Assembly: GCF_024508335.1 (NCBI RefSeq)
Contig: NZ_CP101988.1
Span: forward strand, 3,162,001-3,226,000
Origin: Cellulomonas chengniuliangii
Lineage (GTDB): Bacteria > Actinomycetota > Actinomycetes > Actinomycetales > Cellulomonadaceae
DNA length: 64,000 nucleotides
Direction of reading: 5' to 3'
Both the position numbers and the translations under genes were made by a program. The notes below the pieces were generated by a model. That model did no database searches. It worked only from the letters and a program-made list of their open reading frames with translations, and was not told where the DNA came from. This document shows positions 33,772-38,351 of this stretch, piece by piece (positions within the stretch are counted from its first letter, which is position 1; the number at the start of each line of letters is the position of its first letter).

Positions 33772-33802
33772 TTGACCTCATGCCGAGTTGAGGTTCTACG
33801 TT
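33772..33802 (+). promoter_or_regulatory. soxR promoter with 19-bp spacer
   Basis: -35 TTGACC (33772-33777) and -10 TACGTT (33797-33802) are separated by 19 bp, the long spacer typical of promoters activated by MerR-family proteins. Confidence 0.75.
33776..33793. promoter_or_regulatory. SoxR box in the soxR promoter
   Basis: CCTCATGCCGAGTTGAGG, 18 bp, close to the SoxR consensus CCTCAAG-N4-CTTGAGG, inside the -35/-10 spacer of soxR. It points to autoregulation. Confidence 0.75.
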
Positions 33803-33833
33803 GTCGGGTCCAGGTCACCTTCGAGGAGGGCGC

Positions 33834-34283
33834 ATGCACTCACGGGACGCGCTGTCGGTCGGCGAGATGAGCAGGCGCACCGGTTTGGCGGTGTCCGCGC
33901 TGCACTTCTACGAGCGGCACGGCCTCATCGCCTCGTCCCGCACCGCGGGCAACCAACGCCGCTACCCCCGGCACATGCTGCGCCGCATCTCCCTGATCCT
34001 CGTGGCCAAACGCCTCGGCATCCCGCTGAGCGAGGTCGCGGAGGCCTTCGCTGGGCTTCCCATGGGCTCCGAGCCCAGCACCGAGGACTGGAAGCGGGTC
34101 TCCCGGGTGTGGAAGGTCCGCCTCGAGGAGCGGCGGCACGCCATCCTGCAGCTCGAGAAGGAGCTCGTCGGCTGCATCGGGTGCGGGTGCCTGTCGATGC
34201 GATCGTGCGACCTGCTTAACCCTGGCGACGTGCTCGGCTCCCGAGGCAGCGGGCCGGTCCGACTGGGGCCCGCTGCCCCCTGA
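33834..34283 (+). CDS. soxR: SoxR, [2Fe-2S] redox regulator
   Basis: 149 residues. MerR-type helix-turn-helix (5-75: VSALHFYERHGLI, RTAGNQRRY), dimerisation helix, then the iron-sulfur cysteines C114-x2-C117-x-C119-x5-C125, exactly the SoxR pattern. SoxR is activated when redox-cycling compounds oxidise its cluster. ATG 33834 has GAGGAGG 6 nt before it; the longer frame from 33801 would start inside the -10 box. It is convergent with the transketolase operon, whose promoter carries a similar SoxR box. Confidence 0.93.
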   Translation: MHSRDALSVGEMSRRTGLAVSALHFYERHGLIASSRTAGNQRRYPRHMLRRISLILVAKRLGIPLSEVAEAFAGLPMGSEPSTEDWKRVSRVWKVRLEERRHAILQLEKELVGCIGCGCLSMRSCDLLNPGDVLGSRGSGPVRLGPAAP

Positions 34284-34305
34284 GCCTGCTGGGCCCACCC
34301 ACCGG

Positions 34306-35175
34306 TCAGCTGCCGGCCAGCCGCCTCCGGATGCCGTGCGCGTCGAGCCCGTGCAGGCGCACGTGGTCGGCGGGGCCCCCGTACCGCCGCACCTCTGCGC
34401 GCTGCACCCCCGCGAACTCGACCCGCGCCGGGCGGCCCGCGAGCGCTGCCATGACCTCCGGCGCCGTCGTCCCCTCCAGGTACGGCTCCACCACGAGCAG
34501 GCGCTTGCGTCCCGCCATCAGCCTGGCGAGCCCGGCCGCGTCGAGCGGGAGCGGGGTCGAGGTGTAGGCCAGGGCCACCTCCAGGCCCTCGACGGCGAGC
34601 AGCGTCTGGGCCAGGGCGGGCCCGATCGCCAGGACCGCCGGGCCGCGTCCGTCGCGCAGGACGCGCACGGCGCCGTCGGTGGGGAACGGCTCGGGGTTGG
34701 CCTGGCTGGAGAGCCGGAGGTACTGGGAGTCGTGCGACGCCGCGGCGGCGCGCACGAGCGCCTCCACCTCGTCGGGGTGGCCAGGGGTGTGCGCGCTCCA
34801 CCCGGGGAGGGCGCCGATCAGCGCGACGTCCGCCGGGCTCTGGTGGGTGCGCCCCTCGCTGGCGGCGTCGAAGCTGGCCCCGATCGAGACCAGCACCGCG
34901 GCCTGGCCCTGGTGGGACAGGTCGAGCTTGATCTGCTCGTAGGGCCGCTCGATGAGGAACGGCGCGTAGGAGTGCACGAAAGGGCGCAGGCCCGCCATCG
35001 AGAGCCCCGAGGCCACGCCGATCATGGCCTGCTCGCGGATCCCGACGTTCACCACCCGTTGCGCCACGGCGGTCCCCCGCCCTAGCCCGACCGGCCCGAT
35101 GTCGGCCAGCACCAAGGCGGCCCGAGGATCTGTCGCGAGGACGTCGGCGATCGTGTCGTAGAAGCACTGTCGCAT
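34306..35175 (-). CDS. Transketolase C-terminal subunit
   Basis: 289 residues covering the pyrimidine-binding and C-terminal domains of transketolase/DXS-like enzymes: VNVGIREQAMIGVASGLSM carries the catalytic Glu, EGRTHQSPADVALIG the H-Q motif. Together with the N-terminal subunit it makes a split transketolase, a two-gene form found in many bacteria. Its ATG overlaps the upstream stop by one base (TGATG). The substrate sugar is not certain. Confidence 0.87.
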   Translation of the reverse strand: MRQCFYDTIADVLATDPRAALVLADIGPVGLGRGTAVAQRVVNVGIREQAMIGVASGLSMAGLRPFVHSYAPFLIERPYEQIKLDLSHQGQAAVLVSIGASFDAASEGRTHQSPADVALIGALPGWSAHTPGHPDEVEALVRAAAASHDSQYLRLSSQANPEPFPTDGAVRVLRDGRGPAVLAIGPALAQTLLAVEGLEVALAYTSTPLPLDAAGLARLMAGRKRLLVVEPYLEGTTAPEVMAALAGRPARVEFAGVQRAEVRRYGGPADHVRLHGLDAHGIRRRLAGS

Positions 35176-35867
35176 CAGGACCCCTTCCGGGCGGTGCGGA
35201 CGACCGTCACATGCGGCCCCGTGGCGGGTTGCGTGAGGGCGCGGTGCAGCGCGTCATGATCGGCGGCGTCGGCATGCGCGGCCGACCACCCCTCGACCTC
35301 GAAGCGCCGGGCGATGCCGCCGGGCCAGCCGAGCGAGGCCGAGTCGTTGTCCACGACCACGCACCGCAGGCGGTCCAGGCGCCACCGACCCGCGAGGGCG
35401 ATGGCCTCGTGGTTGCTGCCCTCGTCCAGCTCGGCGTCTCCGAGGAGCACGTGGACGTCGCCCGATCCGGCCGCGCCCGGCGCCAGCGCCAGGCCACGGG
35501 CCAGGCCCACCGCGATCGGCAGGCCGTGCCCGAGGGAGCCGCTCGAGATCTCGACACCCGGCACCAGCATCCGGTCCGGGTGGTGGCCCAACGGGGAGGA
35601 GAAGCCAGCGAGGTCGTCCAGCCACTCCTCGGGGATGACCCCGATCGTCGCGAGCACCGCGTAGTACGAGGCGGGGCCGTGGCCCTTGGACAACAAGAAC
35701 CTGTCCCGTCCCGACTCAGGCGTCAGGCGCAGCACACGGCTGTAGAGCACCCACAGCACGTCAAGCGTGGAGTGCGCGGCGGCGTCGTGCTTCTCGTCCC
35801 CCGTCACCCGGGAGAGGTTGCGCAGTAGTCGCTCGGGCAGGTCGGTCGCAACGGTGGTGGAAGGCAT
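35175..35867 (-). CDS. Transketolase N-terminal subunit
   Basis: 230 residues carrying the thiamine-diphosphate domain: SKGHGPASYYAVL, GSLGHGLPIAVGLA and the ThDP motif G-D-A-E-L-D-E-G-x-N with VVVDND later. The cofactor binds between this and the partner subunit. ATG 35867 is preferred over 35879, because the -10 box of the SoxR-type promoter would lie over the earlier start. In the pentose phosphate pathway such an enzyme links sugar phosphates to NADPH supply, which would fit a redox-stress response. Confidence 0.87.
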   Translation of the reverse strand: MPSTTVATDLPERLLRNLSRVTGDEKHDAAAHSTLDVLWVLYSRVLRLTPESGRDRFLLSKGHGPASYYAVLATIGVIPEEWLDDLAGFSSPLGHHPDRMLVPGVEISSGSLGHGLPIAVGLARGLALAPGAAGSGDVHVLLGDAELDEGSNHEAIALAGRWRLDRLRCVVVDNDSASLGWPGGIARRFEVEGWSAAHADAADHDALHRALTQPATGPHVTVVRTARKGS

Positions 35868-35874
35868 GCGCACG

Positions 35875-35905
35875 ACCATTCCGGCTCAACCGCGGTTGAG
35901 GTCAA
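35875..35905 (-). promoter_or_regulatory. Promoter of the transketolase operon with 19-bp spacer
   Basis: -35 TTGACC (35905-35900) and -10 AATGGT (35880-35875) on the minus strand are separated by 19 bp, the same layout as in front of soxR. The -10 ends 7 nt before ATG 35867. Confidence 0.65.
35884..35901. promoter_or_regulatory. SoxR box in the transketolase promoter
   Basis: CCTCAACCGCGGTTGAGC on the minus strand; its inner 16 bp (CTCAACCGCGGTTGAG) are a perfect palindrome. It sits in the same place relative to -35 as the box at soxR. Confidence 0.7.
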
Positions 35906-36880: not shown

Positions 36881-37852
36881 CTACGACGACGCGCGTCCTG
36901 AGGCAGCCAGCCGCTCGGCGAGCGCGACCACACGGTCGCGGAGCTCGTCCGGGCGTTCGATGACGAATGGCAGGTCGAGCGCGGCAAGCACGGCGGGCAG
37001 CCAGTCGAGGCTCTCGGCCCGGATCTCCACAGACTGCCAGCCTTCGGCCCCGCACTCTCGCACCTCGGCGATGCTGGCCGGTAGCCGTGTGCGGATCTGC
37101 TCGAGCGTTCCGTGCATCCGCAACGTCACGGCATGCCGGCGTGGCGTTCGTGCCATCGAGGCGAGAAGGCGTGTTGCGGGATCGTCCCCGGCCGGTGGCG
37201 GCTCGAAGGAGCCAGGGAGCGTCCTCGCGTCGGCGATGCGGTCGAGCCGGAAGGTCCGATCCTCGCCGACCTCCGGATCGGCTCCCGTGACGTACCACCG
37301 GCCGGCATGGTTGACCAGCCCGAACGGATGCAGCACGCGAGCACTCCGCAGGCCGTCACCCGAGGTGTACTGGAGCGAGATCGGCCGGTGATGGCGGACC
37401 GCGTCGGCGACGGTGAGAAGCACACCTGTCTGCGGCGCCGGGAGCTCGCCGGGTTCTGCGGTGAAGGCGAGGGATGCCAGCACAGCGTCCAGCCGATCCG
37501 CGGTCCGCGACGGCAGGACGCGACGGATCTTCGCTGCAGCCGTCTCGCCCGCCGTGCCCGTCGCCGTCGCCAACCCTGCGCGTCGGCCGGCAACCAGGCC
37601 GAGGAGGACGGCCAGGGCTTCGTCGTCGCTGAGCATCAGCGGCGGCAGACGATATCCGGCGGCAAGCCGATATCCACCGTAGCGGCCGCGCACCGACTCG
37701 ACCGGCACCTCGAGGTCGACCAGATGACCCACGTAGCGCCGCACCGTGCGCGGTTCGACTCCGAGGCGCTCGGCGAGTTCGGCCATCGTCCGGACGCCGC
37801 CGGATTGGAGGAGCTCCAGAAGCGTGAGCACCTGCGCGGTTGGGCGTGCCAT
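36881..37852 (-). CDS. WYL-domain transcriptional regulator
   Basis: 323 residues: N-terminal helix-turn-helix of the DeoR/HTH_11 type (about 5-60: TMAELAERLGVEPRTVRRYV), a linker with YGGYRLAAGYRLPPLML, then a WYL domain (about 140-210: HPFGLVNHAGRWYVTGAD) and a WCX-type C-terminus. WYL domains sense ligands, often nucleic acids or small molecules. It is divergent from the VOC gene with a 12-bp-arm inverted repeat between. The start lies 7 nt after a TAAGGT box. Confidence 0.92.
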   Translation of the reverse strand: MARPTAQVLTLLELLQSGGVRTMAELAERLGVEPRTVRRYVGHLVDLEVPVESVRGRYGGYRLAAGYRLPPLMLSDDEALAVLLGLVAGRRAGLATATGTAGETAAAKIRRVLPSRTADRLDAVLASLAFTAEPGELPAPQTGVLLTVADAVRHHRPISLQYTSGDGLRSARVLHPFGLVNHAGRWYVTGADPEVGEDRTFRLDRIADARTLPGSFEPPPAGDDPATRLLASMARTPRRHAVTLRMHGTLEQIRTRLPASIAEVRECGAEGWQSVEIRAESLDWLPAVLAALDLPFVIERPDELRDRVVALAERLAASGRASS

Positions 37853-37859
37853 GTCTTGG

Positions 37860-37865
37860 ACCTTA
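37860..37865 (-). promoter_or_regulatory. -10 box of the WYL regulator
   Basis: TAAGGT on the minus strand, 7 nt before ATG 37852; the inverted repeat at 37871-37901 covers the region where -35 should be. Confidence 0.55.
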
Positions 37866-37870
37866 ACCCT

Positions 37871-37901
37871 CGAATACTGGACTCGATCTGTCCAGTATTC
37901 G
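37871..37901. promoter_or_regulatory. Inverted-repeat operator between WYL regulator and VOC gene
   Basis: Perfect 12-bp arms CGAATACTGGAC / GTCCAGTATTCG with a 7-nt centre TCGATCT. It lies over the -35 region of the regulator and beside TAGCGT (37905-37910), a -10 candidate for the VOC gene. Confidence 0.75.
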
Positions 37902-37952
37902 TCCTAGCGTGGGCCTCGCCTCGGAATCATCCGCGCTGAGCAGGGAGAAGAC

Positions 37953-38351
37953 ATGGACTTCGTCTCGATCCGCATCATCACCGACGACATCGGCCGACTC
38001 GTCGGCTTCTACGAGGGCATCACGGGCGTGCAGGCGGCCTGGGGCAACGAGGACTTCGCCGAGCTGCGCACCACCCACGGAACGCTGGCGATCGGCAGCA
38101 CCCGCACGGTCGCGCTGTTCGCACCGGGCTCGGCCCGCCCCGCCGACAACCGCACCGTGATCATCGAGTTCCTGGTGGACGACGTGGACGCGGTCTACGA
38201 GAGGCTGAAGGACACGGTCCAGGACTTCGTGAACGAGCCCACGACCATGCCCTGGGGCAACCGCGCCCTGCTCTTCCGCGACCCCGACGGCAACATGGTC
38301 AACGTCTTCACCCCGGTCACCCCCGAGGCGATCGAGAGGTTCAGCCGCTGA
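37953..38351 (+). CDS. VOC-superfamily (glyoxalase-like) protein
   Basis: 132 residues with the double beta-alpha-beta-beta-beta fold of the vicinal oxygen chelate superfamily: opening FVSIRIITDDIGRLVGFYEG and closing LFRDPDGNMVNVFTP, with the metal-ligand Glu position near the end of the second half changed to Asn/Val. Such proteins include antibiotic-binding and dioxygenase members. The pairing with a divergent WYL regulator suggests inducible expression. The Shine-Dalgarno GGGAGAA precedes ATG 37953 by 4 nt. Confidence 0.85.
   Translation: MDFVSIRIITDDIGRLVGFYEGITGVQAAWGNEDFAELRTTHGTLAIGSTRTVALFAPGSARPADNRTVIIEFLVDDVDAVYERLKDTVQDFVNEPTTMPWGNRALLFRDPDGNMVNVFTPVTPEAIERFSR

Follow-up and report, generated by a model that had tools for sequence, protein, structure and literature searches.

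A predicted SoxR circuit with a split transketolase-like gene pair in Cellulomonas chengniuliangii

The SoxR regulons known outside enteric bacteria are small, and they bear on coping with redox-active antibiotics. In Streptomyces coelicolor, SoxR acts directly and, as at the locus reported here, SoxR boxes lie in the target promoters; different from our locus, the targets given in the available text of that study are a transporter and redox enzymes, with no thiamine diphosphate (ThDP) enzyme among them (PMC4146615). Among transketolases, the split-gene enzyme ChTK-F of Carboxydothermus hydrogenoformans (6yak, 6yaj) is divided, according to the accessible text of PMC7661550, into a diphosphate-binding (PP) chain and a chain with the pyrimidine-binding (Pyr) and C-terminal parts, and the enzyme described below is divided in the same way. 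We analysed a stretch of 64,000 nucleotides of Cellulomonas chengniuliangii (contig NZ_CP101988.1, positions 3,162,001 to 3,226,000; hereafter the window, whose own numbering is used), in which soxR lies beside a split transketolase-like gene pair, tktN-tktC. We consider it probable that soxR and tktN-tktC constitute a small SoxR circuit, and that the pair encodes an altered ThDP enzyme working outside the pentose phosphate pathway. The elements of the locus are as follows.

33772..33802, plus strand: soxR promoter, with -35 TTGACC at 33772-33777, a 19-bp spacer at 33778-33796 and -10 TACGTT at 33797-33802
33776..33793, plus strand: SoxR box of soxR, CCTCATGCCGAGTTGAGG, 18 bp, located by pattern scan
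33834..34283, plus strand: soxR, 149 amino acids, TIGR01950 183.8 bits against a cut-off of 116.9, motif CIGCGCLSMRSC
34306..35175, minus strand: tktC, pyrimidine-binding and C-terminal half, 289 amino acids, matching Transket_pyr, PF02779 9.6e-26
35175..35867, minus strand: tktN, ThDP-diphosphate-binding half, 230 amino acids, matching Transketolase_N, PF00456 2.4e-21
35867-35865, minus strand: probable ATG start of tktN, placed by the start geometry of orthologues
35875..35905, minus strand: tkt promoter, with -35 TTGACC at 35905-35900, a 19-bp spacer at 35899-35881 and -10 AATGGT at 35880-35875
35884..35901, minus strand: SoxR box of tkt, CCTCAACCGCGGTTGAGC, containing the perfect 16-bp palindrome CTCAACCGCGGTTGAG at 35885-35900

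The operon runs tktN then tktC, the two genes overlapping by one base, and soxR and tktC adjoin tail-to-tail. The soxR translation contains the SoxR cluster pattern C-X2-C-X-C-X5-C (as CIGCGCLSMRSC), and its product is the single SoxR of the genome above the curated TIGR01950 cut-off. The original prediction had placed an 18-bp SoxR box at soxR and a perfect 16-bp palindrome at tkt inside 19-bp spacers behind identical TTGACC elements. All of these features were recovered, with one correction: the initial CC of each box also belongs to the -35 element, and neither box therefore lies wholly within its spacer. The -10 of tkt is weak. Over the whole 3.57-Mb genome (3,571,554 bases), the pattern TTGACCTCA-N8-TGAG is matched exactly at two sites, the soxR and tkt promoters, and no third exact match was found. 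A one-mismatch site lies at genome position 1565962, and 22 sites match with up to two mismatches compared with five for the reversed pattern. In the window, a weight matrix built from 17 family tkt promoters gives its highest score to the tkt site (33.5), which belongs to the training set, and its second highest to the soxR site (26.7), which does not. The next scores are 6.3, for the tkt palindrome on the opposite strand, and 3.6. In the closest relative (G008; L213/L039), soxR is likewise preceded by a box with this architecture, and soxR likely regulates itself via its own box. In S. coelicolor, by contrast, soxR is said not to be autoregulated in the available text of PMC4146615.

The two palindromes could be unrelated and near each other by chance, and loose matches to the box are indeed no commoner in the window than expected: CCTCA-N8-TGAGG with two mismatches occurs 15 times against an expectation of 31.1. 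Significance thus attaches to the complete architecture and not to the loose box. We inspected orthologous loci from three samples. A family survey of 150 genomes gave 17 close tktN genes with 53-100% identity, the window copy included. A scan of named genomes listed 80 of 442 confirmed relatives; the matches listed are mainly from Streptomyces and also from Amycolatopsis, Lentzea, Actinoplanes, Micromonospora, Saccharopolyspora, an Isoptericola, a few Chloroflexi metagenome-assembled genomes (MAGs), and others. A class sample of 394 genomes contained 53 with a tktN above 300 bits. The latter two served as test sets for the matrix. Four loci were dropped before the count of 106 test loci: L135 (the same place as L047), L138 (the window), L140 (promoter stretch equal to that of L084), and L158, a probable repeat of L064 with one differing box base, whose promoter is present too. 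No identical tktN is left among the 148 loci. L065, an Isoptericola by name, clusters with the family genomes in a tree, so that not every one of the 106 test loci comes from outside the family.

The promoter, consisting of TTGACC/T, a 19-bp spacer holding the SoxR box, and a weak -10, is present at 144 of the 148 tktN orthologues examined: at all 17 family loci, which are the training set, and at 127 of the 131 others. Among the test loci, 104/106 score above 19.7, the maximum of 420 control stretches. Of 25 further loci, 23 score at least 27.3, and all 23 have a start codon at 15-16 nt. The distance from box to start codon is 15 nt at the 17 family loci (16 in the window), and falls within 15-17 nt at 17/17 family, 101/106 test, and 23/25 further loci. 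At 13 other transketolase-like loci (L026-L038) the promoter was found in none, the best score anywhere in 3.0-3.7 kb being 11.5. A tree separates the 148 tktN, as a single clade, from these 13 paralogue loci and the normal transketolase, with moderate support (0.73). Adjacent, overlapping tktN and tktC genes are found at the 17 family loci. Such retention with near-fixed geometry refutes chance, which we regard as vanishingly improbable.

The geometry also bears on the transcript. The window tktN start at 35867 is 7 nt past the -10 (6 or 7 in orthologues) and 16 nt past the box. The longest tktN open reading frame (ORF) opens instead at an ATG at 35879 that overlaps the -10, whereas 35867 is the start consistent with orthologues; automatic annotation may thus assign the wrong one. 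Because the start codon sits at a near-fixed short distance from the box and -10, the tktN-tktC mRNA is probably leaderless, with its 5' end at or near the start codon.

We then examined SoxR itself. A SoxR-like gene lies within the fetched stretch at 48/148 loci, window included, which is a lower bound given that these stretches vary in length. All 48 carry the C-X2-C-X-C-X5-C motif, and no motif-less hit was obtained. In the class sample, SoxR is encoded by 52/53 tktN-bearing genomes compared with 171/341 others (Fisher 2e-13); in the family, by 17/17 genomes with tktN compared with 52/133 without (Fisher 6e-7). Five family genomes of one genus (g21) have soxR distant from tkt (tkt at L041, L042, L045, L046, and L048; soxR at L194, L188, L191, L197, and L189), and SoxR is hence predicted to act on tkt in trans in these genomes. 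At four of these soxR loci (L188, L189, L191, L197), soxR faces a gene starting 15 nt past a SoxR-type box. This gene is a zinc-type dehydrogenase in both cases checked (L188, L189), reminiscent of the S. coelicolor target that is a putative quinone oxidoreductase.

An activator of the MerR family other than SoxR might bind the box, as such resemblance is common to several MerR boxes. The promoter occurs in genome G186, where no SoxR was recognised, and 100/148 loci have no SoxR in the fetched stretch. Yet every neighbouring regulator is SoxR-like with the cysteine motif, SoxR is nearly always encoded where tktN is, the sole other exact match in the window genome is the soxR promoter, and in most g21 genomes the distant soxR itself faces a promoter of the same kind. 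We thus rejected another MerR regulator, giving it only a very slight chance. The conserved promoter at orthologues and the co-occurrence with SoxR make SoxR control of the tkt pair a well-supported prediction, in agreement with the activation that had originally been proposed.

Several observations weigh against this picture. Four of the 148 loci have no promoter (L076, L086, L219, L232), although L219 (G244) and L232 (G292) are second copies and the other copies, L231 and L155, have it. With the exception of these four, we saw no palindrome missing where soxR is kept, a pattern that the original prediction had named as evidence against itself. At the Chloroflexi loci L088, L100, and L107 the promoter is present, yet no start codon follows it at the fixed distance. 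The score of 19.7 was attained by one of the 420 control stretches. The genomes are not independent, and shared ancestry is not taken into account in the Fisher values. G186, a draft of 470 contigs, has the tkt promoter (L236) and no SoxR over the cut-off. The best MerR relative in that genome is without the cysteine motif.

Among the other sampled genomes of the window's genus, neither SoxR (0/6) nor a tktN orthologue (0/6) was found, and five window neighbours of the soxR-tkt unit were sought in stretches of ~11 kb around the units of 16 relatives and not found. These two absences suggest that soxR and tkt were acquired together as a cassette. Other SoxR-type promoters were encountered in the survey. 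The family member G071, which has a window-type SoxR and no close tktN, carries one before a ferredoxin-like gene (L208, 6333-6668, minus strand) with the 15-nt start spacing. G117, G088, and G141 (L209, L210, L211) have two SoxR genes each, with a strong box, TTGACC-19-TAGCGT, near the window-type one.

The active site was compared over 123 loci, the set without the 25 further loci; one of the 123 gave no tktC. In tktN, His27, His63, His96, Asp144, and Asn174 are invariant (123/123), and in tktC, Glu48 and His111 (122/122). Equivalents of Escherichia coli TktA His26, His66, His100, and Asn185 are found in 123/123, and those of Glu411 and His473 in 122/122. The ThDP-binding and catalytic core is hence intact. 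Positions for sugar-phosphate and acceptor handling differ. None of the 122 tktC has a histidine at the position of TktA His461 or an aspartate at that of Asp469; arginine at the Arg520 position occurs once (L050), and serine at the Ser385 position, the least certain alignment column, in 6/122. The tktN chain ends 30-57 residues past the invariant Trp194 (median 37, n=123), whereas in the full-length transketolase of the same genome two histidines of the His261 segment lie 55 and 58 residues past the matching tryptophan. The His261 segment is absent from tktN. Some histidine beyond residue 38 of the tail is found in 3/123 (L136, L080, L161).

Several of these positions have been altered by engineering. 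In their available text, PMC7661550 names Arg358, Ser385, Asp469, and Arg520 of TktA, and PMC10787763 and PMC12016104 name His461. E. coli transketolases altered at Ser385/Asp469/Arg520 accept aromatic aldehydes, as stated in the accessible parts of PMC10787763 and PMC7661550, and an R358I/H461S/R520Q variant is active on 5-ketogluconate according to the part of PMC12016104 that cites other work. Since sugar-phosphate residues are lost in the tkt pair and substitutions at such positions widen the substrate range of the E. coli enzyme, a non-phosphorylated substrate would be expected, and tktN-tktC likely encodes an enzyme of ThDP carbon-carbon chemistry acting on one.

Other points count against this assignment. 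Arg358 is kept in 122/122, which leaves the phosphate site partly in place. The proposed substrate is guessed from the residues that are lost. Genome context gives no pathway hint, soxR aside: when conserved neighbours were sought at 96 loci, with tkt-overlapping ORFs excluded, the widest cluster was soxR (28/96) and the next reached 16/96.

The original prediction saw in the pair an ordinary transketolase; its induction by SoxR would probably increase pentose phosphate flux for reduced nicotinamide adenine dinucleotide phosphate (NADPH), or sugar rearrangement, under redox-cycling stress. A precedent exists in E. coli, where SoxRS and zwf couple redox-cycling stress to the pentose phosphate pathway. 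Both halves are recognised as transketolase by NCBIfam and Pfam, and the intact core and the retained Arg358 fit as well. However, the sugar-phosphate residues are lost family-wide, and a normal full-length transketolase is kept elsewhere in the same genome (TIGR00232 763.4 bits). The halves score 70.2 and 103.8 bits in NCBIfam, far below the cut-off of 488, though this is a full-length cut-off that halves could hardly reach. An ordinary pentose phosphate transketolase is thus disfavoured, and we rate it as unlikely. The pair should not be filed as such, although its fold and chemistry are probably transketolase-like. Structure models of the two halves (mean predicted local distance difference test scores, pLDDT, of 84.9 and 82.6) were given no weight as evidence.

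It is also conceivable, though doubtful, that the pair makes a protective or secreted metabolite, such as an antioxidant precursor or a tailored redox-active natural product, with SoxR timing its synthesis. Streptomyces SoxR targets include enzymes resembling antibiotic-tailoring ones (available text of PMC4146615), and most loci among the matches listed are from Streptomyces. No conserved biosynthetic neighbour emerged from the 96 loci, however, and the pair also occurs in Chloroflexi MAGs.

We favour an altered ThDP enzyme in a SoxR circuit, which could operate as follows. In both promoters, that of soxR and that of tkt, SoxR would occupy the 18-bp dyad in the overlong 19-bp spacer. When redox-active compounds oxidise its [2Fe-2S] cluster, the promoter would be remodelled, as in the known MerR/SoxR mechanism, and RNA polymerase would then start the leaderless tktN-tktC mRNA. 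The two chains may assemble as an alpha2beta2 ThDP enzyme of transketolase fold, by analogy with 6yak/6yaj. The enzyme would most likely donate a two-carbon unit to, or take one from, a carbonyl compound that carries no phosphate and may be aromatic or derived from a quinone, and would serve the response to redox-active chemicals, not the pentose phosphate pathway. A bolder and rather improbable proposal is that it is the first member of a new functional class with the transketolase fold, devoted to redox-active small molecules: its ThDP carbanion would act on quinones, phenazine-like compounds, or the reactive carbonyls arising from them, either attacking or reducing them, as a defence under SoxR that makes carbon-carbon bonds.

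That many actinobacteria have a ThDP enzyme under a conserved SoxR promoter, with the phosphate clamp mostly lost throughout the family, suggests a reaction of the redox response not yet characterised. The proposal is directly testable, with predictions made for its inducer, regulator, start site, and two-chain enzyme. It may also be of use to biocatalysis, since nature appears to have altered the same positions that engineers alter for transketolases acting on aromatic aldehydes. Elsewhere in the window, at 36881-38351, genes for a WYL-domain regulator and a glyoxalase/VOC-fold protein are divergently oriented, and the pair looks ordinary.

A link between SoxR and a transketolase is not wholly without precedent. 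A footnote to Table 4 of PMC4146615 (2014), in its available text, gives a predicted SoxR site before SAV_1623 of S. avermitilis, known by the label 'putative transketolase', and SoxR control is thus foreshadowed by this one footnote. SAV_1623 was found nowhere else in the open-licence literature searched, nor did that literature yield a description of the breadth, leaderless geometry, or altered active site of the SoxR-tkt pair. The accessible gene lists of a Micromonospora genome (PMC7550540) include sections on SoxR and on a split transketolase, which they place under the pentose phosphate pathway, and do not draw the link. In the available text of PMC5288332, on redox regulators of S. coelicolor, the word transketolase is absent.

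Among solved structures, the best relatives by sequence are 6yak for tktN and 6yaj for tktC, both of ChTK-F. The N chain of ChTK-F has 309 amino acids in its PDB entry, compared with 230 for the window tktN. ChTK-F has none of the engineered Arg358/Ser385/Asp469/Arg520 substitutions, as far as the available text of PMC7661550 goes, whereas the window enzyme differs from TktA at Ser385, Asp469, and Arg520. For the C half, the solved family that follows ChTK-C in closeness is 1-deoxy-D-xylulose 5-phosphate (DXP) synthase, a single chain where the window enzyme is encoded by two genes. We considered and rejected DXP synthase as the identity of the pair on account of this division and a TIGR00204 score of 50.6 bits, far below the cut-off of 465.95; the genome has a separate DXP synthase (L172, TIGR00204 596.5 bits). 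The full-length transketolase of the same genome (L170, against a TIGR00232 cut-off of 682.25) shares the fold and the ThDP core with the tkt pair. Unlike the pair, it retains Arg358, Ser385, His461, Asp469, Arg520, and the histidine segment, as judged by eye, and it has no SoxR promoter in its 3.5-kb locus (best score -3.3).

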